Of a DNA stretch of 25,781 nucleotides, positions 1-24,823 are shown one piece after another; the first letter of the stretch is position 1; each line of letters begins with the position of its first letter. Both the position numbers and the translations under genes were made by a program. Source of the stretch: a virus; IMG/VR virus record IMGVR_UViG_3300030104_000131, positions 1 to 25,781 of that record; one strand, 5' to 3'. The notes beneath the pieces are model-generated. The model made no database searches, was not told the origin of the DNA, and was given only the letters and a program-made list of their open reading frames with translations.

Positions 1-1926
1 ATGAGCAGTACACTAGGAGTTACTGGTAAGATTACTGCTGATGCTGGTATTGATATAGATAACTTTAACATAGATGGCACAACTATAGCATTATCTTCTG
101 GTGATATGACAGTGGATGCTGCTGGAGATATTATACTAGATGCAGATGGTGCTGATGTATTATTAAAAGATGATGGCACACAGTATGGTGCATTAACAAA
201 CAACAGTGGTAACTTAATAATTAAATCTGGTTCTACTACTGCTGCTACATTTACTGGAGCTAACACTGCACTATCTGGAACTCTTAGTGCTACTGCACTT
301 AGCGTAGGTGATGGTAATATAACTAACGTAGGTGATATTGCCCTTGACTCTATTTCTGCTGATGATACAGATATTAATGTAGCAGTAACAGATAACTCAG
401 CTACTGCATTTACAATTAAGCAGGGATCAGATGCATATCTTATTGTTGATACAGCCAACAGTAGTGAGTCAGTATCTATCGGTACTGGCATATCTGGTAC
501 TGCAATAACAATAGGACATGGTACTTCTGAAGTAACTATAGGTGATAACCTAACTGTTACAGGAAACCTAACAGTAAGCGGTACGCAAACAGTAGTAGAT
601 ACAGTTACTATGAATGCACAGAATGCAATCGTGTTTGAAGGTGCTACTGCTGATGACCATGAAACTACATTATCTATAATAGATCCTACTGCTGATCGTA
701 CAATTAACTTACCTAACCAATCTGGTACAATACCTGTATTAGCAGCAGTAAGTACAACACAGATTACATCTACACCAGAAGAACTAAACATACTAGACGG
801 TGTAACAGCAACAGCATCAGAGTTAAATATACTTGATGGTGTCACGGCTACTGCTACTGAACTAAACATTATGGATGGTGATACATCAGCGTCAAGCACT
901 ACAATAGTTGATGCAGATAGAGTAGTTGTTAATGATGCTGGAACAATGAAGCAGGTTGCAGTTACAGACTTAGCTGCATACTTTGATGATGAAATAACAG
1001 CTATGCCAAACCTAGTTACTACTGGTGCATTAAACAGTGGTAGTATCTCTACAGGGTTTGGTGCAATAAACAATGGATCATCTGCCATAACTACAACAGG
1101 TACAGTTACCTTTGGGTCAATATCAGATGGCACTATAACAATTACAGGCTTTGTTGATGAGGATGACTTCTCTTCTAATAGTGCTACGCTAATACCTACA
1201 CAACAATCTGTAAAAGCATTAATAGATGCATCATTTAACGTATCAGGTTTAAACGCTACTGGTGCAGAACTAAACACTGTTGCAGATGCCTCTGCTGTTA
1301 GTATAGACACCAGCACTGCCATAGCAAATAACGATGCTATACTTATGCATGACTCTAGTGCTTCAGTAATGAAATACTTTGATGTTGATCTACTAGATAC
1401 ATATTATGCAAGTACAACGCAAACTTTATCAAACAAAACATTGACAGCACCTAAAATAGCTGATGGTGGTTTTATAGCAGATGCAAACGGTAATGAAGCT
1501 GTAGTATTACAAACTGCTAGTTCTGCTGTAAACGCAATAGAGATAACAAACGCTGCATCAGGTGGTGCTGTAGTTGTTGGAGCTATGGGTGACGATACAA
1601 ATATAGACATAGACATATCTCCAAAAGGATCAGGTGAAGTAAACATAGCAGCAGGTAACTTAAACTATGCAGGTACAGCAGTCACGGCTACTGGTGCAGA
1701 GTTAAATATCCTAGATGGTGTTACATCTACTACTGCTGAATTAAATACATTAGATGGATACACTGGTTCTGTAACTGAATTGAATTATCTTAAATCATTA
1801 TATGATACTGGTGTGACTAGCACAGAGTATGATTACTTGGATGGTGTAACCAGTAACATCCAAACACAATTAAACAATGGCGTAACTACTGGAAAAAGCA
1901 TAGCTATGGCTATGGTCTTTGGTTGA
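1..1926 (+). CDS. Tail-fibre-like repeat protein, probably 5'-truncated by the window edge
   Basis: The 641 readable residues are rich in Gly, Ala, Thr, Asp and Asn, as in beta-rich phage fibres. Repeats of the form ELNILDGVT occur at about residues 258-290 and again, degenerate, at about 566-620. Around residues 225-245 lies 'DPTADRTINLPNQSGTI', and 'TLSNKTLTAPKI' lies near 475; both are recurrent in marine phage fibre proteins. The role inferred is a distal fibre or receptor-binding component of the virion. The ATG at base 1 may be internal: no upstream sequence or ribosome site is visible, and the protein opens directly in repeat-like sequence with no recognisable virion-anchoring domain. 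It is followed after 14 bases by another virion-type gene. The fibre assignment rests on repeat style rather than on a catalytic motif. Confidence 0.75.
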   Translation: MSSTLGVTGKITADAGIDIDNFNIDGTTIALSSGDMTVDAAGDIILDADGADVLLKDDGTQYGALTNNSGNLIIKSGSTTAATFTGANTALSGTLSATALSVGDGNITNVGDIALDSISADDTDINVAVTDNSATAFTIKQGSDAYLIVDTANSSESVSIGTGISGTAITIGHGTSEVTIGDNLTVTGNLTVSGTQTVVDTVTMNAQNAIVFEGATADDHETTLSIIDPTADRTINLPNQSGTIPVLAAVSTTQITSTPEELNILDGVTATASELNILDGVTATATELNIMDGDTSASSTTIVDADRVVVNDAGTMKQVAVTDLAAYFDDEITAMPNLVTTGALNSGSISTGFGAINNGSSAITTTGTVTFGSISDGTITITGFVDEDDFSSNSATLIPTQQSVKALIDASFNVSGLNATGAELNTVADASAVSIDTSTAIANNDAILMHDSSASVMKYFDVDLLDTYYASTTQTLSNKTLTAPKIADGGFIADANGNEAVVLQTASSAVNAIEITNAASGGAVVVGAMGDDTNIDIDISPKGSGEVNIAAGNLNYAGTAVTATGAELNILDGVTSTTAELNTLDGYTGSVTELNYLKSLYDTGVTSTEYDYLDGVTSNIQTQLNNGVTTGKSIAMAMVFG

Positions 1927-1940
1927 TTAGGAGGTAAACA

Positions 1941-2303
1941 ATGGCAAATCCAAATATAGTCGCTGTTAGTTCTATTTATGCAAATACAGTTATGGATGCA
2001 GACGTTGCAGCCTCTGCTGTTTCGTTGCTAACTTGTGGCTCTAACAAAGTACAGAAGATTAACTCGCTTGTTATAGCAAACATAGATGGGTCTAACGCTG
2101 CTTCTATTGATGTATGGATAACTCGTAGTTCTGCTGATTACTATCTAGCAAAAACAATATCAGTTCCTGCTGATGCAACGCTAGTTGTAATTGATAAGAA
2201 CATGGGCCTATACTTAATGGAAAGTGACATATTGAAGATACAAGCATCTGCTGCTGGTGATCTAAGTGCAGTATGCTCATACGAAGAAATTGATGACGCT
2301 TAA
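1941..2303 (+). CDS. Small conserved virion-associated protein, function unknown
   Basis: This 120-residue protein has alternating hydrophobic strands and no signal peptide or membrane helix. A strong AGGAGGT ribosome site lies just before the ATG. It sits between the fibre-like gene and the kelch-repeat genes, in the same direction with a 12-base gap to the next gene, so a small tail or fibre accessory protein is likely. The pattern 'NSLVIANIDGSNAASIDV' followed by a strand-rich C-terminal half suggests a compact beta-sandwich. I know proteins of this style beside fibre genes in marine phages, but no enzymatic motif is visible and no function is assigned. Confidence 0.75.
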   Translation: MANPNIVAVSSIYANTVMDADVAASAVSLLTCGSNKVQKINSLVIANIDGSNAASIDVWITRSSADYYLAKTISVPADATLVVIDKNMGLYLMESDILKIQASAAGDLSAVCSYEEIDDA

Positions 2304-2315
2304 TAGGGATTCCTA

Positions 2316-4793
2316 ATGGTTCGTAGAGGAAGTTTTATAGGAGGTCAGGACAATCTTAGTGTACCTGATGCCCCAACAATAGGTGCAGCTACTGTTGCTT
2401 CTGGACAAGTTTCAGTAGCGTTTACTGCACCTTCTGATGTTGGTGATGATCCTATTACTAGCTTTGGTGCTAGTGTATTTCCTGCAACAGGAACAACTAA
2501 AACTTTTAGAGTAACTGTAGCATCAGGTAATTTATATGGTGGTGGTACAGGTAATGTCTTCTACATTGACGGTGTAAGTAATCCAGCCTTAACTTTAGTA
2601 AAAGGTTTTACATACGTCTTTGATCAAGAAGACAGTAGTAACTCAGGACATCCTTTCCATTTTAAAAATTCATCAGATAGTCAATATACTACAGGTGTTA
2701 CTGTTTCAGGAACAGCAGGTTCATCAGGAGCAACTGTAACACTAGTATTAGCTGAAGATGCAAGTGAACCTTCTGCTTATTATTGTACTGCTCATGGTAA
2801 TGGTATGGGTAATACAATTACTTTAGTAGCTCCTAGTGCATCAGATGATCCTCTAGGTCAGGCACAATATACTAATACTGGGTCTTCCTCACCAATTACT
2901 GTAACTGGATTAAGTAATGGTACACCATATGTAGCTAAAGTATGGGCAATCAATGATTACGGTAATGGCCCACTGTCTGCTGCTACTTCTAGTTTTACTC
3001 CTGCATTAAATAGGGCTATACTTGTTGGTGCAAATACTGATGCTACAGATTTACAACGTATAGATTTTGTTACAGTTCAAACTACAGGTAATGCAACAGA
3101 TTTTGGTAATGCTACAGGAAGTGTAAATTATCCTGACGCTGCTGGTTCAGATACAAGAACAATTATCTACGAAAGTGGAACATCTACTTATACAGATATT
3201 ATAAGTTATGTGACGATTGCTTCAACAGGAAATGCCACTGATTTCGGTGATTTGTCTGTTGCTACAGGATATGTAGGAGCAGCTTCTAATAATGTGCGAA
3301 GTATTAATACTGGAGGTGTAATAAACGCTGGTGGTGGTACTTATCAAAATAGAATAGAGTATTTAACAATCGCTACTACTGGTGATGTTACAGATTTTGG
3401 TGATCTGTTAGGAACTTTTTTAATTCATGGCTCTGCTGCTTCTACAACTAGAATAGTAACAGGAGGTGGTTTTGGTTTATTATCAGGGGGAGCATCTAAT
3501 GTTTATCATGTAACAGTTCAGTATAATACAATAGCTAGTGCTGGTAACTCTAGTGACTTTGGAGATTTAACAGTAGGAAGAACTTCTGGTGCATTAGCTA
3601 GTGCAACAAGAGCAGTTTTTGGTCCAGGAGATTCATCAGGCACTAACACAATGGATTATATTACCATCGCTAGTACAGGCAATGCAACTGACTTCGGAGA
3701 TAGTACAATTACCCGAAACGGTGCTGGAGGAACAGCAGATTCTACAAGAGGATTATTTTTTGGTGGTGGTGGTAAAAATGTTATAGATTATATCACTATT
3801 GCTAGTACTGGTAATGCTACTGATTTTGGCGATCTAACACAACAACATACACAAAAATCTGGTGGTCATTCTAGTGATGTTGCTGCTGCTCAAAACGAAT
3901 CATATTTCGCTCCAGCAGCTATGGGTTTGTTTGCTGGTGGTGTAGGAAGTGGTACTACTATAGAATACATTGATATTGCATCTACAGGTGATACTGCAAT
4001 GTTTGGTGATTTGAGTGTGGCTAGATCGTATGTGGGTGCTACAGCTTCTAGTACTAGGTCTGTTCATGCTGGTGGTTATACAGGTTCCAGTCAAGATGTA
4101 ATTGATTTTGTATTATTTAGCACAAAAGGCATAGCTACAGACTTTGGTAACTTATTAAGTGCAACATACAGCGTTGCTGGAGCAGGAAGTAACACAAGAG
4201 GTATCTTTTCATTCTCAACCCCTAGAAGCAATGTTATACAATACATAACGATTGCTTCTGCTGGAAATGCCACAGATTTTGGTGATAAAACTGTGTCTGT
4301 AGAAAGTGGAGCGTCTGCATCATCTCAAACAAGAACTGTTATGGCAGGAGGATTTGAAGCCTCTGATGACGTTGATGTTATAGATTATGTAACAACAGCT
4401 AGTACTGGAAATGCCACTGACTTTGGTAATTTAAGCACTGGTGCAAGTCAAATGAGTGGTGCAGTTTCTAGTAATACTAGAGCAGTATTTGCTCTTGGAC
4501 GGACTTACTCAGGAGGTTCGTCTACAACGGTAAATACATTAGAATACATAACGATAGCATCTACTGGCAACGTGACTGATTTTGGGGATTTAAGTGTAGC
4601 ACGATATTTAGCTAATGCAGTTTCTTCTTCTACTAGAGGAGTATTTTCTGGTGGGGTAGCTAGTAGCGGAGTTTCAAATGTAATGGACTATATTACTATA
4701 GCTTCTACAGGGAATGCCACAGATTTTGGTGATATAATTAGTCAACCATATGCACATGGTGGTTCATCCAACTCACATGGAGGATTATCGTAA
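2316..4793 (+). CDS. Fibronectin III / cupredoxin-like / 12 kelch-like repeat virion protein
   Basis: This 825-residue protein has three parts. Residues about 12-60 and 173-230 together form a fibronectin III domain ('PDAPTIGAATVASGQVSVAF' and later 'ITVTGLSNGTPYVAKVWAIN'). Residues about 62-172, between those halves, look like a cupredoxin, with His112, His115, Cys157, His160 and Met164 in an HPFH ... YCTAHGNGMG arrangement. From residue 232 to the end are 12 repeats of about 45-50 residues with consensus NVIDYITIASTGNATDFGDL, a Ser-rich turn, TRGVF and a Gly-Gly pair. A linker after repeat 6 (residues about 510-536) splits them 6+6. The repeat resembles a kelch blade: Gly-Gly, Tyr-x-Ile, an aromatic residue, Asp-Leu and Arg. 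It is probably a fibre or receptor-binding surface protein. It overlaps the next start as TAATG. No signal peptide is seen. Confidence 0.8.
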   Translation: MVRRGSFIGGQDNLSVPDAPTIGAATVASGQVSVAFTAPSDVGDDPITSFGASVFPATGTTKTFRVTVASGNLYGGGTGNVFYIDGVSNPALTLVKGFTYVFDQEDSSNSGHPFHFKNSSDSQYTTGVTVSGTAGSSGATVTLVLAEDASEPSAYYCTAHGNGMGNTITLVAPSASDDPLGQAQYTNTGSSSPITVTGLSNGTPYVAKVWAINDYGNGPLSAATSSFTPALNRAILVGANTDATDLQRIDFVTVQTTGNATDFGNATGSVNYPDAAGSDTRTIIYESGTSTYTDIISYVTIASTGNATDFGDLSVATGYVGAASNNVRSINTGGVINAGGGTYQNRIEYLTIATTGDVTDFGDLLGTFLIHGSAASTTRIVTGGGFGLLSGGASNVYHVTVQYNTIASAGNSSDFGDLTVGRTSGALASATRAVFGPGDSSGTNTMDYITIASTGNATDFGDSTITRNGAGGTADSTRGLFFGGGGKNVIDYITIASTGNATDFGDLTQQHTQKSGGHSSDVAAAQNESYFAPAAMGLFAGGVGSGTTIEYIDIASTGDTAMFGDLSVARSYVGATASSTRSVHAGGYTGSSQDVIDFVLFSTKGIATDFGNLLSATYSVAGAGSNTRGIFSFSTPRSNVIQYITIASAGNATDFGDKTVSVESGASASSQTRTVMAGGFEASDDVDVIDYVTTASTGNATDFGNLSTGASQMSGAVSSNTRAVFALGRTYSGGSSTTVNTLEYITIASTGNVTDFGDLSVARYLANAVSSSTRGVFSGGVASSGVSNVMDYITIASTGNATDFGDIISQPYAHGGSSNSHGGLS
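2499..2831 (+). other. Cupredoxin-like segment inserted in a fibronectin III domain
   Basis: Residues about 62-172 of the 825-residue protein read as a beta-rich segment with FYIDG, a YVFDQEDSSNSGHPFHF stretch and a C-terminal YYCTAHGNGMG loop. The spacing Cys-x2-His-x3-Met plus an upstream His fits the ligand layout of type 1 copper proteins (plastocyanin has Cys-x2-His-x4-Met). The flanking halves read continuously as one fibronectin III domain, so this is an insertion in a loop. Copper binding is inferred from residues only. Confidence 0.55.
3009..4790 (+). repeat. Kelch-like repeats, two modules of six (3009-3923 and 3924-4790)
   Basis: Twelve copies of a protein-level repeat are visible, each carrying a variant of 'ITIASTGNATDFGDL' then '(T)R-hydrophobic-GG'. 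The FG[DN] core occurs 12 times. Between repeats 6 and 7 a longer linker (SGGHSSDVAAAQNESYFAPA) interrupts the spacing. The last repeat ends in SNSHGGLS at the stop codon. The DNA of the copies is diverged, so this is an old protein repeat rather than a recent DNA tandem array. Confidence 0.85.
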
Positions 4794-6706
4794 TGGCCCC
4801 ATCATTCTCAGGCGTTTGGAAACTACAGACAAAGTATCAGTATAATTCTGCTTTTCCTATTGATACTAATTTATTACCTAAATCGTTAATTGGGGGAGGA
4901 TACGATGGAAGTGCTTATACCAATCAGGTACAAAAAATACTTATAACTAACGTATCTAACGCTGTAGATTTTGGTGATTTAACTGTAGCAAGAGGTAACA
5001 GTACTGGTGGAGGTAGCTCTACTAGATTTGTAACTGCTGGAGGATATGCGTCTTCACACAGTAATGTTATAGATTATAAAGAGTATGCAAGTAGCGGTAA
5101 TTTGTCTGACTTTGGAGATTTATTAGCAACTAAACTTGAACTAGGTACTATAGGAAATAATGATACTAGACTTGTTTTTGCAGGAGGATATGGGCCTTCT
5201 GCTTACTATAATGTAATTGAATATATTACTATTGCATCCACTGGAAATTCAACAGATTTTGGGGATTTAACAACAGTTCGTCACGCATTAAGCACTGGTC
5301 AAATAGGCAATACTATAAGGGGTTTAAATGCATCAGGATATAATAATTCTGCTTCAGCAACGCTTAATGTAATAGAGTATATAACTATACCTAGTACTGG
5401 AAATTCTAGAGATTTTGGGGATTTAACTGCTACAGCAGTAAATGTAGCTGCCTGTTCTTCCTCTACCAGAGGTGTATTTATGGGAGGCAGATCTGGTATA
5501 GGTGGGGGAGACAGTAATAGGAATGTAATACAATATGTTACTATAGTATCAACAGGTAATGCTACAGATTTTGGCGATTTAAATGTAAGTGTATTTAGAA
5601 GTCAAAGTGTTTCAAATAGTACAAAAGGATTAAATGCTGGAGGTAGCACTGATGGAGGTGGAACACAAACTAACGTAATTGATCAAATAACTATAGCCAG
5701 TACAGGTAATGCGACAGATTTTGCCGATTTAGCCACTGCTATAAGTGCAGGATCATCTGGTTGTGCTGCACACCCATCAGTACAAGCAAATGTTTTACCA
5801 GATTTACCATCAGCAGGTAATACTGGGTTAATGACTGGCGCTATAGATTCATTTATTGAATCAATAGATATTGCAACGTTAGGTAACAGCGTAGAATTTG
5901 GTGATATAAGTTATACCTATGTAAATGGATCGTATGGTGGTGCATCAAGTGCAACTAGAATGTGTGTTGCTGGTGGGTATTTTGATGGTAGTAGGGGAAG
6001 CAACATTGATTTAACGACATTTGCTACAAGAGGACTTGGTGTAGATTTTGGTGATTTAACCGTAGCAAGACAAACCGTTGGAAATTCAAACAGTACTAGA
6101 GGATTATTTGCTAGTGGGCAAACAGCTAGTGGTTATGTAGATACCATAGATTATATAACCATAGCTAGTGCTGGTAACGCAACAGACTTTGGTAATCTTG
6201 TAGAAGCGTTAATGATACCAGGAGTATCAGGAAGTCCCACTAGGATGCTTTTTTCGGGTGGAAGAAAATCATCTGGATCAGGCACAAGTAATTACAGCAA
6301 TCAGATAGGATATGTGACTATATCATCGACAGGTAACACCACAGATTTTGGTGATTTGTTAGAAACAAATGGTTTCGGCATAGCGACTTCTAGCAGCACT
6401 AGATCGGTTCATTGTGGTGGTTATACAGGTGCAGCAGGTTTAAACAGAATGCAATATATGACAATAGCTAGTACAGGAGATTCTACAGATTTTGGTGATT
6501 TACTTTCTCAGTGGTCACAAGGAACCTGTTTTAGCAACAGTACAAGAGGTGTGGTTGGACAGGGATATAATTGGGAAATTGGTGGAAATCAAAATGTAAT
6601 ACAGTATTTTACTATTGCTTCTACAGGTGACTCAATAGATTTTGGAGATGCACTTAAAGCAAGTAATCCAGCAGGACAATCTAATGGACATGGAGGACTA
6701 TCGTAA
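4793..6706 (+). CDS. Kelch-like repeat virion protein with 12 repeats
   Basis: This 637-residue protein is nearly all repeats. A short N-terminal part carries SGVWKLQ, matching SGVWNIH in the next gene and probably a shared attachment or cap sequence. Residues about 31-637 hold 12 kelch-like repeats with the ITIASTGNATDFGDL core. A linker around residues 325-344 (GCAAHPSVQANVLPDLPSAG) separates repeats 1-6 from 7-12. It ends in SNGHGGLS, like the upstream gene. Start and stop overlap the neighbours as TAATG at both ends, so translation of the three genes is probably coupled. It is most likely a tail-fibre or adsorption protein with two six-bladed propellers. No enzymatic motif was seen. Confidence 0.8.
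   Translation: MAPSFSGVWKLQTKYQYNSAFPIDTNLLPKSLIGGGYDGSAYTNQVQKILITNVSNAVDFGDLTVARGNSTGGGSSTRFVTAGGYASSHSNVIDYKEYASSGNLSDFGDLLATKLELGTIGNNDTRLVFAGGYGPSAYYNVIEYITIASTGNSTDFGDLTTVRHALSTGQIGNTIRGLNASGYNNSASATLNVIEYITIPSTGNSRDFGDLTATAVNVAACSSSTRGVFMGGRSGIGGGDSNRNVIQYVTIVSTGNATDFGDLNVSVFRSQSVSNSTKGLNAGGSTDGGGTQTNVIDQITIASTGNATDFADLATAISAGSSGCAAHPSVQANVLPDLPSAGNTGLMTGAIDSFIESIDIATLGNSVEFGDISYTYVNGSYGGASSATRMCVAGGYFDGSRGSNIDLTTFATRGLGVDFGDLTVARQTVGNSNSTRGLFASGQTASGYVDTIDYITIASAGNATDFGNLVEALMIPGVSGSPTRMLFSGGRKSSGSGTSNYSNQIGYVTISSTGNTTDFGDLLETNGFGIATSSSTRSVHCGGYTGAAGLNRMQYMTIASTGDSTDFGDLLSQWSQGTCFSNSTRGVVGQGYNWEIGGNQNVIQYFTIASTGDSIDFGDALKASNPAGQSNGHGGLS
4883..6703 (+). repeat. Kelch-like repeats, two modules of six (4883-5824 and 5825-6703)
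   Basis: Twelve repeat cores are counted, one of them altered to FAD. Repeat 8 here has FATRG in place of IASTG, and repeat 8 of the preceding protein has FSTKG at the same position. This indicates that the second module of each protein descends from a common six-repeat unit rather than from single-repeat gains. Confidence 0.8.
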
Positions 6707-7743
6707 TGACTGAACGATATTTAGGCTCCATAATATCTCCAAGCCCTGTTGAGCCATCTAGCAATCTTTCAAATGCAACTGCATCTGGTGTGTGGAATAT
6801 ACATGATCCACTGATATTTGGTCAGGCAGGTGATTGGCCTAATGCTGCTAATAGACCTACTAGTGGTTTTTTTATGGGTGGTGGAAATGACGGTGGTAAC
6901 TTTAATGAGATAGTTAAAATTATTCCTGAGACTGCTGGTAATGCAACAGACTTTGGTGATCTCTCAGCACAAAAGAAAAATGGTGCAGGATTTTCTTCAG
7001 ATACTAGAGGCATATTCTCAGGTGGTGGGCCATACAACAGTATTAATGTAATTGATTATTTTAGTATGGCTTCTGCTGGTAATGCCAGTGATTTTGGAGA
7101 CATGACCACAAATAGATCTAAAGGATCAGCACTATCAAGTAATGTAAGAGGTGTGATGAGTGGTGGTGCAAATGACAATGCTGAAACTCGTATAAATATA
7201 ATCGATTATATTACCATAGCTTCCACTGGGAATGCTCAAGATTTTGGTGATCTATCTGCTGTTAAATTTGAACACTCAAGCACTGCCTCGACAACAAGAG
7301 GTGTGTTTTCTGGTGGTAGAACATCTGGTGGTAGTTCATTAAATGTAATAGAGTATGTGACCATAGCTAGTACAGGTAACACTACAGACTTTGGTGATCT
7401 TACGGCAGCAACTTACTATGCAAATAATGGTGTAGTATCATCTTCTACGAGAGGTCTTTTTGGAGGTGGAATAAGCACTAATAAAATAGAATATATAACT
7501 ATAGCTTCCACAGGTAATGGAACAGATTACGGAGATCTTTTAGCTACAAATTATTCTCTTGCAGGTTTAAGTAATGCTACTAAAGGGATATTTGGTGGAG
7601 GTTATAATAGTGGTCATCTAAACGTAATTCAATCCGTTACTATAGCAAGTACAGGAAATGCTGTAGATTTTGGTGATTTAACACAAGGAACCAGTGCAAT
7701 TACAGCTTGTTGTTCTGGTAATCCAGCAGTACAATCAGCTTAG
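6706..7743 (+). CDS. Kelch-like repeat virion protein with six repeats and an altered C terminus
   Basis: This 345-residue protein overlaps the preceding stop as TAATG. The first 52 residues include SGVWNIH and GDWP, a short N-terminal segment related to that of the upstream paralogue. Residues about 54-345 hold six kelch-like repeats (FGD or YGD core), one propeller's worth. The protein ends ACCSGNPAVQSA, similar to the internal linker GCAAHPSVQAN of the upstream protein, rather than the SNSHGGLS or SNGHGGLS ends of its two paralogues. The SNSHGGL ending is present just beyond, in the +1 frame, reaching a stop at about 7769. Either a frameshift shortened or replaced the tail, or the assembly has an indel. 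A fibre or adsorption role is inferred from its repeats and neighbours. Confidence 0.8.
   Translation: MTERYLGSIISPSPVEPSSNLSNATASGVWNIHDPLIFGQAGDWPNAANRPTSGFFMGGGNDGGNFNEIVKIIPETAGNATDFGDLSAQKKNGAGFSSDTRGIFSGGGPYNSINVIDYFSMASAGNASDFGDMTTNRSKGSALSSNVRGVMSGGANDNAETRINIIDYITIASTGNAQDFGDLSAVKFEHSSTASTTRGVFSGGRTSGGSSLNVIEYVTIASTGNTTDFGDLTAATYYANNGVVSSSTRGLFGGGISTNKIEYITIASTGNGTDYGDLLATNYSLAGLSNATKGIFGGGYNSGHLNVIQSVTIASTGNAVDFGDLTQGTSAITACCSGNPAVQSA
6865..7740 (+). repeat. Kelch-like repeats, one module of six
   Basis: Six consecutive copies of the same repeat occur, starting GFFMGGG and ending in the sixth FGDL core. The first repeat has the most divergent strand (IVKIIPETAGNATDFGDL), as does the first repeat of most other modules. 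Confidence 0.8.
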
Positions 7744-7771
7744 TGTATCAAACTCACATGGTGGACTATAA
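7742..7771 (+). pseudogene. Out-of-frame remnant of the shared SNSHGGL C terminus
   Basis: Read one base forward of the upstream gene's frame, these bases encode SVSNSHGGL followed by TAA. This nearly matches the SNSHGGLS and SNGHGGLS ends of the two preceding paralogues. The match lies immediately after the upstream TAG, so a +1 or -2 shift near 7681-7741 would restore the ancestral ending. Confidence 0.6.
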
Positions 7772-7803
7772 AAATTTAACAACAACAAAGGATAAATAAA
7801 CTT

Positions 7804-8643
7804 ATGACAAAACAAACTACAGAAATAGCAGTACAGCAGGAACTAAACATTAACTTACCTGCTAATGTAAAGCCAGAGTATAAAACAATGTTGGCAAACA
7901 TAAAAGAAAAGATGCCAGCAGTTGCTCAAGCTACATCTAACTTCCATAAGTCACACTCACAGTTTATGGGCGTGACACTAGACGTAACTGCTATTACACC
8001 TATTCGTAGTATTAAACATACATTGGCTGAAGTAGATCGTACTAGAGGTGCATTGCAAGAAGCCTTTATTAATATGAAGAAGAAAGAGGTGGAGCTTAAA
8101 AAGAAACAACGTGAACTAGAAGAATGCACAGATGATCTAGACAAAGAAATGCTAGAGATAGAAATACTAGAATTAGAAACTGGTCTAACAAATGGTCAGA
8201 ATAGTGTGCAAGGTGCTATTCGTAAAATGAACTTCTTTACTAATCAGTATGACAAACTAATGGAGCATATAGGTAAAGACGAACTTACTGAAGCAGACTA
8301 TGAACTAGAAGAAGCACGATACCATATAATGACCTGTATGAAACAGGCACTAAATAGTGCTAGACCTAGAGGTGGTCAGATAGATGAGGGTAACTTAATA
8401 TACTTATTTGATCTAGGTATTAATGCAGCACAAGCACAAGCTGAAGTGTTCGCATATCTCCAGTGGGAGAATAAAGTTATTAGTGAAGGTAAAGCCCCTG
8501 AACATGAAGCGACAGTAAAATGGTTAGAAGGTTGTGCAGACAAATGGGCAGGGTGTCCAGCTAAGTTTGCAAACAGTAGAGGGTTCGATGTCTTTGATCC
8601 TACATCATTGACTAATGTACCTCAGTTAGAAGCAGCCGAATAG
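7804..8643 (+). CDS. Coiled-coil phage protein of unknown function
   Basis: This 279-residue, largely helical protein has a charged stretch at about residues 78-137 (MKKKEVELKKKQRELEE and onward) that strongly suggests a coiled coil. A C-terminal region with Trp and Cys follows (WLEGCADKWAGCPAKF). A weak AAAGGA ribosome site lies about 11 bases before the ATG. It follows the kelch-repeat genes after a 60-base gap and precedes small structural-type genes, so a virion or assembly role is likely. No membrane segment, signal peptide or catalytic motif was found, and I do not recognise a named family. Confidence 0.75.
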   Translation: MTKQTTEIAVQQELNINLPANVKPEYKTMLANIKEKMPAVAQATSNFHKSHSQFMGVTLDVTAITPIRSIKHTLAEVDRTRGALQEAFINMKKKEVELKKKQRELEECTDDLDKEMLEIEILELETGLTNGQNSVQGAIRKMNFFTNQYDKLMEHIGKDELTEADYELEEARYHIMTCMKQALNSARPRGGQIDEGNLIYLFDLGINAAQAQAEVFAYLQWENKVISEGKAPEHEATVKWLEGCADKWAGCPAKFANSRGFDVFDPTSLTNVPQLEAAE

Positions 8644-8654
8644 GAGGAACTAAT

Positions 8655-9005
8655 ATGGCTTACAAAGTATGCAAGTATCGGCTAAACGCTGATGGAACAA
8701 TACCAGACTTTTTACATTTCGGACACGACCCAATGGGTATGCATGGAGTGTATGTGGTGGTAGATAGTGACACTGCTGCACCTAGAGATAATGTTATGAT
8801 AGGCATTGTTAAAGATGGTGGTAGTGGAGACTTTGAAGAGATTGCAAGTAAAGAAGCTCTTCAAACATATTTAACTTCTGTGTCAGGTGATTGGACTGAT
8901 CCAGATCCAACTGAGGATGATCCAGATAATACAAAGGCATTTGATAATGCTGCCCATGCTAAGAGAGTATGGGATGCTCTAGACGCTTGTAATGCGACAC
9001 TATAA
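8655..9005 (+). CDS. Small acidic hypothetical protein
   Basis: This 116-residue protein is acidic, with a mixed beta/alpha pattern and an Asp/Pro-rich segment near residues 75-92 (DWTDPDPTEDDPDNT). A TAGGAGGAA ribosome site overlaps the end of the upstream gene, and 10 bases separate it from the next gene, so it is part of the same transcript. No known domain is recognised. The neighbourhood suggests an accessory virion protein. Confidence 0.7.
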   Translation: MAYKVCKYRLNADGTIPDFLHFGHDPMGMHGVYVVVDSDTAAPRDNVMIGIVKDGGSGDFEEIASKEALQTYLTSVSGDWTDPDPTEDDPDNTKAFDNAAHAKRVWDALDACNATL

Positions 9006-9015
9006 GGAGTAGATT

Positions 9016-9255
9016 ATGATGGAAGCTATATCACCAGTAATTTTTTGGAACGTAGTATTAACGCTGGTGATTGCACCTGCGATATGGATGTTCAGAAATC
9101 TCATGGCAGAGGTCAAGCGAATAGATATACTCCTCAATCGTACTAGAGAAGACTACTCTACTAAGCAAGAGCTACGAGAGGACATGAAGATGGTTACGGA
9201 TGCTCTACATAGATTAGAGGATAAACTAGATAAAGTATTAGAGAGGGGAAAGTAA
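9016..9255 (+). CDS. Single-helix membrane protein with C-terminal coiled coil
   Basis: This 79-residue protein has one hydrophobic segment at about residues 6-26 (ISPVIFWNVVLTLVIAPAIW). A charged helix from about 30 to 78 follows, with regular leucines (VTDALHRLEDKLDKVLERG). The layout fits a small inner-membrane protein such as a holin-like or spanin-like lysis factor, or a membrane-anchored virion accessory. No endolysin lies next to it, so a lysis role is only a possibility. It starts behind a TAAGGAG ribosome site and is separated by one base from the next gene. Confidence 0.7.
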   Translation: MMEAISPVIFWNVVLTLVIAPAIWMFRNLMAEVKRIDILLNRTREDYSTKQELREDMKMVTDALHRLEDKLDKVLERGK

Positions 9256-20978: not shown

Positions 20979-21159
20979 CGATAGTACTTAACCTCTTTAG
21001 ATTAGAATAATACTCAAGGTTGTAGCCTCTCAGCCATTCTCTATACCTATCAGAAGTAGTAGGAAAAGGATTATTTTTATTACGTCTGAACCCTATCCTG
21101 CCCTGATGAACAATATCCCTCATTGGAAAAGGATATCTTCTGCGTTTTCTAAACGCCAC
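20965..21159 (-). CDS. Small basic protein resembling ribosome modulation factor, GTG start
   Basis: This 64-residue protein starts at GTG, preceded by a strong AGGAGGGG (21163-21170) embedded in the last codons of the reductase gene, giving an 11-base overlap. A longer TTG-start reading to 21216 exists but lacks a ribosome site and would overlap by 68 bases. The key region GRIGFRRNKNNPFP ... EWLRGYN has the same order as the GxxAGxxG...CPY...WLGGW pattern of bacterial ribosome modulation factor, which dimerises ribosomes in stationary phase. A weaker copy (RKRRRYPFP) precedes it. Short RMF-like proteins occur in phages with unknown roles. The family link rests on a short pattern only. Confidence 0.6.
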   Translation of the reverse strand: MAFRKRRRYPFPMRDIVHQGRIGFRRNKNNPFPTTSDRYREWLRGYNLEYYSNLKRLSTIDGST

Positions 21160-22852
21160 AGACCCCTCCTGAATTGGTAATTTCGCATATATCATGTGTC
21201 TCAACATGCTCTTCAAACTCCGTACCTAATTTATCTATTGCTTCACTATATGGTACTACAGATAATGGTTGACCACCTCTGCAACCATCTGGATATACTG
21301 TAAATCCACGTAATCTATGTGCATATGATGCTAATGTATTAGCAAAGTTACTTACAGTATCCTCGTTATTAAACTTAGATCCCCAAGCAGGTAGATTGAT
21401 AGTAGAACTAATAGACATATCTACGTAATCCTGTACGTCTGCTTGAAACTTAATCCTTCTTTCGTAATCATCTGCTAAGTCTAACGCAGATTCAATCTTA
21501 TCAGGATCAGCACCGTACATATCAATTAACTCTTGTGCTGCGGAGTCTATAACATACTGATACTTCCATTTAGTACCTCCTGTTAAATACCTACGTTTAT
21601 ATGCCACTGCAAATATTGGCTCTATCCCACTGGAGCTACCAGCGAGTATAGAAATACTACCAGTAGGAGCGATAGCCCTGTTCGCAACTGGTCTGGATAT
21701 AGATAACTCATCAGAAAATTTCTTACTTGTATCGTCACTAACCCCTTGATATATCGATAACCATCTATGTAATGTTGGGGTAACTTCATACTTCTCTCCA
21801 CGTTTAACTAACCATTCATGCATACCCATTAAACCTAAACCTAGTCTTCTGTTCTTTTCCCTAACTCTATGTACTTTAGCATAGGGTAGCTCTGCTCTCA
21901 ATGTACCACAGATTAAGAATTTAGTAGCAAGTTCAACGACTCTAGCAAGCTCCTGAAGTGAATCAATGCGTCCAAGATTAACACTACCCAAATTACAAAC
22001 ATCACTGTCATCAGCAGAAGTAACTTCTGTACAAGCATTTCTCAGGGTATCCTTTTCATTCTCCATGAAGTTAAAGCTAAATCCTGGTTCAGCAGACGTT
22101 AGTGCTTGTTCAACATTCTTCATAAACACTTCACCAACATCACCTGTTTTCCAGTAATTCATCAACCATTCGGTGTCATAGTTTACGCTGATGTTAGTCA
22201 TATCTAGAGGTGCGCGGAAGTTAAAGTCCTGCTCCTTTATATCTTTAAAAGTAAATCCTGTAGTACCAACATTCATATCACCCCAGTTCTTAGCAGTTAA
22301 GAAACTAGGTATATCATTGTGCTTCCAGTTAAGTGATGCATACATGGCTGATCTACGTGACCCTCCCTGCATTACATTAGCACCTATAGAATTAATCATC
22401 TGCATTTTGGGTATCGGGCCAGATGCTAGTCCACCAGATCCACCAAGAGATCTACCTGACTCACGATAGATAGAATAGTCTACTCCAATACCTCCACCTG
22501 TCATCAAACATGATTCTGCTTTCCAACTTAGGTTAGCCCAATCCTCTCGCGTATCCTCTTCAGCAGATAATAGGAAACAGTTATTATAGAAGCGTCTATC
22601 TCGTCCTGCATAATAAATATATCTACCACCTGGTACGAACTTGAGATCTGTGATATACTTCTGTAGCTCTTTACGTTCTTCTTTACGCATTAAAGCTTCT
22701 TCACCTGAACGTAAGTTACCGCATACATCTTCTACAAGAACTCTTGATAACTGTTCCCACGTATCACAACCTGTATGAGCATACTTTAAGTTAAATATAT
22801 CCTCAGAGAATTTTGATCTGAACATTGGATTCATGTTTGATTTAAATGTCAT
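21149..22852 (-). CDS. nrdJ: Ribonucleotide reductase, probably B12-dependent class II
   Basis: This 567-residue enzyme reduces ribonucleotides to deoxynucleotides for phage DNA synthesis. The thiyl-radical site is NACTE (Asn272, Cys274, Glu276). The redox pair is Cys92 (NNCFLL) and Cys286 (CNLGSVNLG). The nucleotide-site motif APTGSI is at 395-400. MTGGGIGVDYS at about 117-127 is usual in class II enzymes. C-terminal Cys556 and Cys565 could act as shuttle thiols, although their spacing is wider than the usual CxxC or Cx4C. No small subunit gene or radical-SAM activase lies in the window, and the short compact length fits class II adenosylcobalamin enzymes of marine phages. A class I large subunit is the alternative if a small subunit lies elsewhere. 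It overlaps its neighbours at both ends. Confidence 0.9.
   Translation of the reverse strand: MTFKSNMNPMFRSKFSEDIFNLKYAHTGCDTWEQLSRVLVEDVCGNLRSGEEALMRKEERKELQKYITDLKFVPGGRYIYYAGRDRRFYNNCFLLSAEEDTREDWANLSWKAESCLMTGGGIGVDYSIYRESGRSLGGSGGLASGPIPKMQMINSIGANVMQGGSRRSAMYASLNWKHNDIPSFLTAKNWGDMNVGTTGFTFKDIKEQDFNFRAPLDMTNISVNYDTEWLMNYWKTGDVGEVFMKNVEQALTSAEPGFSFNFMENEKDTLRNACTEVTSADDSDVCNLGSVNLGRIDSLQELARVVELATKFLICGTLRAELPYAKVHRVREKNRRLGLGLMGMHEWLVKRGEKYEVTPTLHRWLSIYQGVSDDTSKKFSDELSISRPVANRAIAPTGSISILAGSSSGIEPIFAVAYKRRYLTGGTKWKYQYVIDSAAQELIDMYGADPDKIESALDLADDYERRIKFQADVQDYVDMSISSTINLPAWGSKFNNEDTVSNFANTLASYAHRLRGFTVYPDGCRGGQPLSVVPYSEAIDKLGTEFEEHVETHDICEITNSGGVCGV
21163..21170 (-). promoter_or_regulatory. 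Ribosome binding site that sets the GTG start at 21159
   Basis: The minus strand reads AGGAGGGG, three bases from GTG (five from the AGGAGG core). It lies in the reductase codons for Ser-Gly-Gly-Val near the C terminus, so the same bases serve coding and initiation. Confidence 0.75.
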
Positions 22853-23629: not shown

Positions 23630-24021
23630 GTTAGTATCTCCAATAAATCTTCAGCATACAATAATGCTAAAGGTTGTTTCCTATCACCTTTTAATATGGC
23701 AATAGGTTTAGTATTCTTAATTAAGTTTCTTTCAGCCTGTTCCAATGCCTCGTATACAGAGAAAGAAGATCTAGATTTACATTCAACCGTCCAAGGAAAC
23801 AGCTTCCTTGCTAGTGGACTAAGCCCAATATCAGGGCCATTAACTCCACCAGGAGTAGAGGTGACATCATCCTTCTCTATACCTTTTAGATTAGAGTGCA
23901 GATAGTCACGTACCCACTGTTGAAGTCTTCTTCCTTTTGCTTTCGCAGAAGAAACTTTAATCCTTGAAGACCGTGTAGTAGTTGTACGCTGTTGCCGATT
24001 TGGACCTTGGGTTTTTCGCAT
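23602..24021 (-). CDS. PD-(D/E)XK nuclease, Holliday-junction-resolvase type
   Basis: This 139-residue protein has a basic N terminus with an SSAKAKGRRLQQWVRD helix, then STPGGVNGPDIGLS and WTVECKSR. The Asp of GPDI with ECK forms a PD-(D/E)XK catalytic core; the EALEQAE helix supplies a conserved Gln. The size and layout fit phage resolvase-type or VRR-like nucleases. The only ATG gives a 65-base overlap with the upstream gene and no clear ribosome site. Relatives usually begin close to the SSAKAKGRR segment, so the true start is uncertain. The C terminus is Lys-rich (SMTKKKK). It probably acts in recombination or in resolving branched DNA. Confidence 0.75.
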   Translation of the reverse strand: MRKTQGPNRQQRTTTTRSSRIKVSSAKAKGRRLQQWVRDYLHSNLKGIEKDDVTSTPGGVNGPDIGLSPLARKLFPWTVECKSRSSFSVYEALEQAERNLIKNTKPIAILKGDRKQPLALLYAEDLLEILTCSMTKKKK

Positions 24022-24823
24022 AAACTAAATCAGGCCAACAAGAATATCTAAAGTTACAGTAACTACAGGTCTTGTGTAACTTTCTATTTCCTGTTGTCTT
24101 TCTATAAAAAGTTTCGGGTTCGTCTTCAAAACATCTTTTAAAATTTGTTTCATCAGCTTCAACATACTTACTTATTGTATCACTGATTTTACTTGTATAA
24201 CTTTCTTCATCGTCAGGGTCAGCAGGTACTACCTTCATCTCACCTGTTTCTTTACTTATAGCAATCCAGCCACCAGCTTTGATATCTGGAGTTTCTTCTC
24301 TTTCTGCTTTAGTGTATCCATACAACTGTTCTAGATAACCGAAGTCATCATTGTCTTTTAATGCTTGATAAGACTCAAACTTCTTTTCAAAAGCAAACTT
24401 AGATGCACTTTTAATATCCCAGAGAGAGTACGAATTACCATCTTTTATTATTAAATCTAATTCTCCATTTATTATTCCATGCTCAGTCTCAAGAGTAACT
24501 CTTTTATTTAAATCTATTATCTCTATTCCTGCTGCAAGTAGCAATGCAACTGCTATTACCTCAGTCATATCTCCGTATAACATTTTAATTTTAAAAGAAT
24601 TTACTTCTGCTACTTTTTCCCACCCTAATTTCTCAGCATGTAATTGACAAAAGGGTTTACCTACCTGAGACATAGAGGGAAGTTTAGCTCCCCCTTTTCT
24701 CTTGAAGTTGAATTTCCCCAACTTATTATTAAACATTTGACTAGCCCTGAATATAATATCATCAGGGATCTTTGGATCATTTGCTAGGAAATCTTCAATC
24801 TTCTCAGCAATATTAGTCACCAT
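23957..24823 (-). CDS. Cas4-like PD-(D/E)XK exonuclease with four cysteines
   Basis: This 288-residue protein has Gly84...Glu88, GELD (Asp123), DIK (Asp136, Lys138) and Gln166 in EQLYGY, which form a RecB/Cas4-type nuclease core. Cys59 upstream and Cys253, Cys256 and Cys262 near the C terminus match the four-cysteine arrangement that holds an iron-sulphur cluster in Cas4 and AddB-type nucleases. No cas gene is near, so this is a phage replication/recombination exonuclease, as in many marine podovirus-like genomes, rather than a CRISPR adaptation protein. It overlaps the upstream gene by 11 bases (ATGGTGACTAA). A role in end resection or host DNA degradation is inferred. Confidence 0.85.
   Translation of the reverse strand: MVTNIAEKIEDFLANDPKIPDDIIFRASQMFNNKLGKFNFKRKGGAKLPSMSQVGKPFCQLHAEKLGWEKVAEVNSFKIKMLYGDMTEVIAVALLLAAGIEIIDLNKRVTLETEHGIINGELDLIIKDGNSYSLWDIKSASKFAFEKKFESYQALKDNDDFGYLEQLYGYTKAEREETPDIKAGGWIAISKETGEMKVVPADPDDEESYTSKISDTISKYVEADETNFKRCFEDEPETFYRKTTGNRKLHKTCSYCNFRYSCWPDLVYAKNPRSKSATAYNYYTVFKD

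Follow-up and report, generated by a model that had tools for sequence, protein, structure and literature searches.

The three-gene array at positions 2316–7743 of the window (the whole stretch analysed, 25,781 nucleotides of IMG/VR record IMGVR_UViG_3300030104_000131) is probably an adsorption-gene cluster of a marine, HMO-2011-type podovirus, in which N-terminal anchors carry exchangeable six-bladed Kelch-type propellers and the genes are coupled to one another. The evidence comes from predicted structures, from the numbers of blades in several hundred homologues, from sister phages in which whole propellers have been replaced, and from the position of the array among tail-fibre genes.

Layout and predicted fold of the array

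All of the features lie on the plus strand, and neighbouring genes share a single base within TAATG. Gene 1 (2316–4793; P0001, 825 aa) encodes an anchor (residues 1–229, 2316–3003) with a tail-fibre-like N terminus and an fn3-like stretch, which is followed by propeller 1 (residues 231–520, 3006–3875) and propeller 2 (residues 531–821, 3906–4778). Residues 47–343 match phrog_30742 (tail fiber protein, E 2.8e-17), the fn3 match in the anchor scored 20.8 bits, which is under the cut-off, and the anchor is 92–94% identical to those of the closest sister phages. Gene 2 (4793–6706; P0002, 637 aa) consists of a short anchor containing SFSGVWKL (4793–4873, 89–96% identical in sisters), propeller 3 (4880–5797) and propeller 4 (5825–6697). 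Gene 3 (6706–7743; P0003, 345 aa) has an anchor (MTERYLGSI...GVWNI...DWP, 6706–6852) and a single propeller 5 (6858–7736).

The preliminary description had counted 12, 12 and 6 FG[DN] repeat cores in the three proteins. The repeat numbers hold, as a profile of the ~48-residue unit also finds 12, 12 and 6 repeats, but a strict FG[DN] count gives 12, 11 and 5, and the full numbers are reached only when FAD (the sixth core of propeller 3, P0002) and YGD (P0003) are added. The proposed division into five six-repeat units, with a linker after repeat 6 in both 12-repeat proteins, was borne out: the core spacing is 59 at the break versus 44–54 inside the modules. Among 37 homologues that have 12 repeats, repeats 6 and 7 are 56–75 residues apart, and every other spacing is 43–56.

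Are these units closed propellers? The AlphaFold2 model of P0003 (pLDDT 89.6, pTM 0.89) is a closed six-bladed Kelch-type propeller (residues 52–337), as had been suggested for the modules, and its whole ring aligns to the six-bladed Kelch domains of Keap1 and SAKe6 (Z 38–39.5, rmsd 1.8 Å over 275 residues). Module 2 of P0001 is also predicted to be a closed six-bladed propeller (VIA-align Z 37.1 against SAKe6BE, rmsd 1.9 Å, 274 residues), and the model of its module 1, of moderate confidence (pLDDT ~78), has the strand pattern B-C-D-(A-B-C-D)x5-A. These comparisons of the predicted P0003 and P0001 module 2 with Kelch structures support the reading of the modules as six-bladed Kelch-type propellers, each of which opens with strand B of its first blade and has its ring closed by a C-terminal strand A.

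In the Kelch sequence motif, a Tyr and a Trp are conserved after the GG doublet. Across 2526 repeats, the two positions of the doublet that ends strand B are Gly in 84% and 90%, the Kelch Tyr follows in 78%, and the later aromatic, 12 columns past the Tyr, is a Phe (96%), the Trp of the motif being absent there. When P0001, P0002 and P0003 were searched against the Pfam profiles, no Kelch family matched at E values up to 10; thus, the fold is Kelch-like and is not counted within those sequence families. A sequence search of the PDB gave a chance-level hit only. The B-C loop columns have an entropy of 2.9–3.9 bits, compared with 0.07–0.35 at the most conserved core positions. These loops, the most variable part of the ring, probably contact the host receptor; in KLHL20, the substrate surface is shaped by the B-C loops (PMC6720452).

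The first repeat of each unit had been described as the most divergent, which is the case in four of the five window modules but not in P0001 module 2, where blade 2 scores lower. Across 421 modules, scored on the columns present in every blade, 46% have blade 1 as the one furthest from the consensus, where 17% would be expected by chance. The FSTKG/FATRG signature in blade 2 of the second modules (FATRG in propeller 4) is real, and it is general across phages: 60% of second modules have the F and 66% have K/R/F/Q in the column after it, versus 0–33% and 0–15%, respectively, at all other blade positions. It identifies a type of second module that occurs across phages, not the duplication within the window that it had been thought to point to; the nearest relatives of the two window second modules are modules in other phages. 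Whole-module duplication is upheld only in part. In the module tree, the second modules of different phages group apart from the rest (15 label changes versus 35–44 when shuffled), whereas the remaining modules sort by gene slot only weakly (38 versus 44–58). The clustering of individual repeats by blade position, which was expected to be strong, is weak (31% versus 17%).

The C-terminal HGG codons of genes 1 and 2 form a GGAGG Shine-Dalgarno sequence for the next TAATG start (4779–4795 for gene 2, 6692–6708 for gene 3). Among HGG termini, the GGA codon occurs in 127/144 coupled versus 31/92 uncoupled genes, which supports statistically that the genes are translationally coupled through these codons. 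Could the HGG terminus serve purely as a Shine-Dalgarno sequence? We rejected this, as HGG is frequent without a downstream propeller gene (100/140). HGG must, therefore, be structural too, and coupling would be signalled by codon choice only.

Exchange, number and splitting of propellers

Comparison with sister phages showed, at the level of DNA, that propellers come and go, change gene slot and are replaced whole at the anchor/propeller border. In sister phages whose flanks are 93–96% identical, DNA identity breaks off where the anchor gives way to the propeller (3003; in five sister phages, gene-1 identity ends at 3002–3003), and in most of the sisters, the anchors are 89–96% identical versus 43–59% for the heads. 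Propeller 5 is an exchanged cassette whose DNA is 98.9% identical to that of the propeller in gene 1 of sister L001; the head dS between these two phages is 0.034, lower than the anchor dS of 0.19, so the head moved after the two phages diverged. L001 itself has kept the gene-3 anchor with a DUF7483 tail-fibre head on it. Downstream of propeller 5, the sequence becomes homologous to the end of gene 3 in sister L004 exactly at 7748, where an out-of-frame remnant of an older gene-3 end, TCAAACTCACATGGTGGACTATAA (SNSHGGL stop), occupies 7748–7771. Such exchange presumably alters the host range.

Homologues, all of which are metagenomic or unstudied proteins, carry multiples of six repeats, as had been anticipated: 348 of the 374 distinct complete ORFs (175 loci) have 6, 12 or 18 blades. 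Nearly all of the others either contain a propeller split over two abutting genes or have one weak blade, and there are a few remnant ORFs (L015, L093, L101) whose blade numbers are not multiples of six. ORFs first counted as having 7 blades owed the extra one to a false hit on the N-terminal MVRRGSFIGG, and those counted as 11, plus one counted as 5, each had one blade below the threshold. That a stable ring needs all six repeats, so that the repeat number shifts in steps of six, is strongly supported.

About ten propellers are split, all in the B-C loop right after the GG doublet. The codons of the doublet act as the Shine-Dalgarno sequence of the second half, and the restart codon overlaps or abuts the stop or lies one codon off (start offsets −4, −1, 0 and +3), a restart that about 3.3% of random codons would permit. 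The halves add up to six blades (2+4, 3+3, 1+5 or 4+2) and presumably join into one six-bladed ring. Two loci are not among the clean splits: L212 has the look of a simple frameshift, and the restart in L264 is loose. On balance, we favour natural two-chain propellers, in which one ring is coded by two overlapping or abutting genes, the GG codons provide the ribosome-binding site and the halves assemble. It is less likely, though a possibility of some weight, that the split genes are pseudogenes or sequencing errors instead of working two-chain proteins: a Kelch-like propeller disrupted by a frameshift and a stop is on record (PMC9218822), and L212, with its frameshift look, and L264, with its loose restart, point the same way. 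Against this stand the recurrence of the splits at the same loop with tight restarts, the supply of a Shine-Dalgarno sequence by the GG codons, and one split common to phages with 89% identical proteins, its halves having dN/dS values of 0.36 and 0.33. If GG codons serve as the ribosome-binding site of a second half, each blade contains a latent gene-splitting site.

Genomic position and probable role in adsorption

The major capsid protein of the phage is 64–66% identical to those of HMO-2011 and CRP-345. The array is flanked by homologues of gp42 and gp25/gp24, which is the position of the HMO-2011 tail-fibre cluster. Upstream are a gene in the tail-fibre position with a weak gp43 match (1–1926; 49% over 37 residues, E 8e-5) and a small structural-protein gene homologous to gp42 (1941–2303; 33% over 85 residues, E 3e-8). 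The assignment of the three genes to adsorption is well supported by circumstantial evidence, namely this position and a relative in which the propeller is borne by a tail-tip J protein. A conserved N-terminal anchor, which would fix each protein to the virion, is followed by one or more autonomous six-bladed propellers, and the five ring-shaped heads are probably the host-gripping parts.

Might the propellers instead be decorations or whiskers of the capsid or tail that confer general surface stickiness and not specific receptor binding? Kelch-type proteins are present in jumbo phages; in phage CBB, CBB_552 is a component of the virion, and no gene has been assigned to the hair-like whiskers (PMC5259590). 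The 17 and 14 tandem six-blade genes found in two other phages would also be many for a single receptor. We nevertheless consider this improbable, as the array lies within the tail-fibre cluster, L001 carries a tail-fibre head on a propeller anchor, and a Desulfobacter vibrioformis protein matching the central tail fiber J (phrog_31, 1.5e-85) has six propeller-family blades at its end. Conserved anchors with wholesale replacement of heads are, moreover, the usual pattern of host-recognition proteins; PMC10684548 deals with protein shuffling in phages.

It is very unlikely that the propellers are enzymes, polysaccharide depolymerases or sialidase-like propellers, which break down glycans on the host surface. 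Six-bladed propellers are a common depolymerase domain class in Klebsiella phages (PMC11448410), but the closest solved folds here come from binding domains of the Kelch type and designs based on them rather than from glycosidases. The Asp-box S-x-D-x-G-x-[TS]-W does not occur in P0001, P0002 or P0003, and no conserved catalytic set is apparent, the invariant columns being mainly scaffold or anchor Gly, Phe and Trp.

Blade number, known propellers and significance

That the multiples of six reflect common descent or the way in which homologues were fetched, and not a structural rule, is hardly credible: the relatives all go back to a single ancestor with six blades, and similarity to a six-repeat protein was the criterion for the first sample, but a second sample, fetched by the DNA pattern of one repeat core, likewise gave multiples of six, gene slots in sister phages differ in blade number by six only (6, 12, 18), and the sum of six holds in the split propellers. 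Distant relatives in bacterial and archaeal assemblies have six blades per module in most cases. Cultured phages appear from our searches to have almost no members of the family: when P0002 and P0003 were compared with named phages by tblastn, the only match was a weak one to S-SKS1, and searches with these two proteins did not find the propeller in HMO-2011.

The window propellers share with the Kelch beta-propellers (Keap1, KLHL12, KLHL20 and the SAKe6 designs) six four-stranded blades, the strand-B GG doublet, closure by a C-terminal strand A and variable B-C loops. They differ in having about 14% identity and no Pfam Kelch match, in the Phe of DFGD in place of the usual Trp, and in lacking BTB/BACK, being carried on phage anchors, often two per chain. 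The Kelch-like virion proteins of jumbo phages (CBB_552, Phabio, Noxifer, BcepSaruman) have a similar fold in BFVD models but about 13–16% identity to the window propellers, and no description of them that we found mentions coupled tandem arrays, exchange of cassettes or split propellers. The tail-fibre cluster of Puniceispirillum phage HMO-2011 (gp28–gp43), a phage related by its capsid, occupies the same place, between structural and internal-protein genes, but consists of many small fibre genes. Modular receptor-binding proteins (tailspikes, tail fibres) also combine a conserved N-terminal anchor with an exchangeable C-terminal head (PMC10684548, PMC6872550); the exchange unit here, however, is a whole six-bladed propeller, which also moves between gene slots. 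Fragment propellers (tachylectin-2, WRAP, PkwA) likewise form a ring from several chains (PMC6805158) but are engineered and homo-oligomeric, whereas the phage ring is apparently split naturally into two chains within a blade. New here are the whole-cassette exchange of heads, the B-C-loop splits after the GG doublet and the HGG codons that double as a Shine-Dalgarno sequence.

The family offers a natural experiment on propeller blade number: its similar repeats are open to unequal recombination, yet among hundreds of such genes, almost only 6, 12 and 18 blades survive. If the split genes are real proteins, they would be natural hetero-oligomeric propellers, which WD40 propeller design did not obtain (PMC6805158). 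These phages possess a large and apparently undescribed family of probable adhesins that exchanges whole six-bladed rings, and because the exchange unit is the whole ring, changes of host range in abundant marine phages could be traced cassette by cassette.

Six-bladed units in the window and its relatives

The propeller array of the window, a virus record of 25.8 kb, is encoded by three coupled genes (2316–4793, 4793–6706 and 6706–7743) with one-base overlaps at TAATG. The preliminary description had counted 12, 12 and 6 repeat cores in them, with a long linker right after repeat six of both 12-repeat proteins, and both points hold. The core count gave these numbers with one FAD and one YGD admitted, a profile of the repeat unit returned the same for the three proteins, and the core-to-core spacing, otherwise 44–54 residues, was 59 past repeat six in both long proteins. 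Opposite the upstream gene, a 440-codon open frame on the minus strand (3–1322) is probably a shadow ORF of that gene's repetitive sequence. Genes for a ribonucleotide reductase large subunit (21149–22852) and a Cas4-type exonuclease (23957–24823) also lie on the minus strand.

The six-bladed propeller fold proposed earlier was borne out by structure prediction. In the model of P0003, the gene 3 product (pLDDT 89.6, pTM 0.89; alignment of 62 sequences), residues 52–337 matched the complete six-bladed Kelch rings of the SAKe6 designs (Z 39.5, rmsd 1.8 Å) and Keap1 (Z 38), with an identity of about 14%. In P0001, the gene 1 product, modelled without its N terminus, predicted module 2 matched Kelch propellers with Z 37, and module 1 reached a pLDDT near 78 with the correct strand order. 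The modules start with strand B of blade 1 and end with strand A, a ring closure like that of KLHL20 (PMC6720452). In BFVD, the closest models came from uncultured phages and S-SKS1, along with Kelch-like jumbo-phage proteins.

Do the homologues also keep to multiples of six? Scanning viral contigs with P0003 gave 540 relatives, with 80 loci retained; a second scan used only a DNA pattern for GNATDFGD[LF]T-like cores, and its sample is therefore independent of any six-repeat protein. Among 374 distinct complete ORFs (175 loci), 278 had 6 blades, 67 had 12 and 3 had 18, together 93%, although kinship among the genes makes these counts non-independent events. Six further ORFs were one blade short solely because that blade scored below threshold, and 16 formed eight adjacent pairs, every pair adding up to six. 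The remaining exceptions were three remnants (L015, L093, L101) and one split half at L168 near a contig end. The L015 remnant (7099–7503; 135 aa, about two and a half blades, a non-multiple of six) may equally be a natural deletion or an assembly collapse. In sister phages, the gene slots hold 6, 12 or 18 blades and shift in steps of six. In two further phages, runs of 17 and 14 consecutive propeller genes of six blades apiece (G004:C1:47598–72257 and G005:C1:51260–71863) fill 20–25 kb of the ~72-kb contigs. The N termini of these genes are diverse, and a motif resembling IRFNTDSxxLEY appears in many of them. Most of the distant homologues from bacterial and archaeal assemblies likewise show six or twelve blades, the exceptions being L279 and one L274 ORF, with five hits each.

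Exchange of whole propellers

The window and its sister phage L001 share 95.8% DNA identity over 1–3003 and 94.8% over 7769–9182. The gene-1 anchor ends at base 3003, and identity with four other sisters (L004, L219, L220, L211) likewise stops at 3002–3003. Among close sister phages, all three gene anchors are about 89–96% identical, whereas the propellers are only 43–59% identical. The striking exception is the window gene-3 propeller (6858–7736), which shares 98.9% DNA identity with the L001 gene-1 propeller. Because its dS is 0.034, compared with 0.19 for the gene-1 anchor, this propeller moved after the two phages diverged. In L001 (7526–9562), the gene-3 anchor is retained but fused to a different domain, a DUF7483 tail-fibre head. 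Downstream of the P0003 stop, an out-of-frame SNSHGGL-stop (7748–7771), at which homology to the L004 gene-3 end starts, is the scar of an earlier gene 3, which was probably longer.

In a tree of 166 modules, the second modules of two-propeller proteins formed a coherent class (15 changes vs. 35–44 shuffled) bearing the FSTKG/FATRG signature, and the other modules tracked gene slot weakly (38 vs. 44–58). Clustering of single repeats by position in the module, raised earlier, was present but weak (31% vs. 17%). Taken together, these patterns indicate that whole propellers moved among slots. The signature shared by both long window proteins is confirmed; it reflects this family-wide second-propeller class and not a duplication within the window, and the whole-module duplication first suggested is partly borne out.

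Split propellers and translational coupling

One propeller is spread over two ORFs at L007/L008/L207, L042, L053, L069, L079, L095, L109, L168 (twice) and L263; the less clean L212 and L264 were left out. The split invariably falls just past the GG doublet of strand B, ahead of strand C, and the restart codon overlaps or abuts the stop or lies one codon further (offset −4, −1, 0 or +3), an arrangement that a simple calculation predicts for 3.3% of random codons. The GG codons supply a GGAGG-like Shine-Dalgarno, mostly 9–11 bases upstream of the restart. L007, matched exactly by L008 from a second assembly, has its split in common with L207 at 89% protein identity, and dN/dS values of 0.36 and 0.33 for the two halves suggest that selection acts on each. 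The L069 split, restarting at TTG, could be a frameshift error. We infer that the split halves join into one ring.

The C-terminal HGG of the propeller proteins occurs both with and without a propeller gene next downstream, and the first of its two Gly residues is encoded by GGA in 127 of 144 coupled genes but in 31 of the 92 others (p 3.6e-18 by Fisher's test, a value that kinship makes too small). Therefore, the Shine-Dalgarno depends on which codon is used and not on the residue itself. Kelch domains in phages are already known, as are modular tail fibres; among openly accessible papers, we found nothing on this phage propeller family, no account of whole-propeller exchange and no natural within-blade propeller splits.

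Genomic place and likely role

The L001 major capsid protein is 64–66% identical to those of Puniceispirillum phage HMO-2011 and CRP-345. The propeller array is flanked by homologues of HMO-2011 gp42 and gp25/gp24, between which HMO-2011 has its tail-fibre genes. At L277 (450–4229), a Desulfobacter vibrioformis protein that matches central tail fiber J has six blades of the propeller family at its end. The repeat unit varies most in its B–C loops, which shape the substrate surface in KLHL20 (PMC6720452). General decoration and an enzymatic role for the propellers are both less supported; the best reading of these sequences is that the propellers would serve adsorption as exchangeable binding heads.
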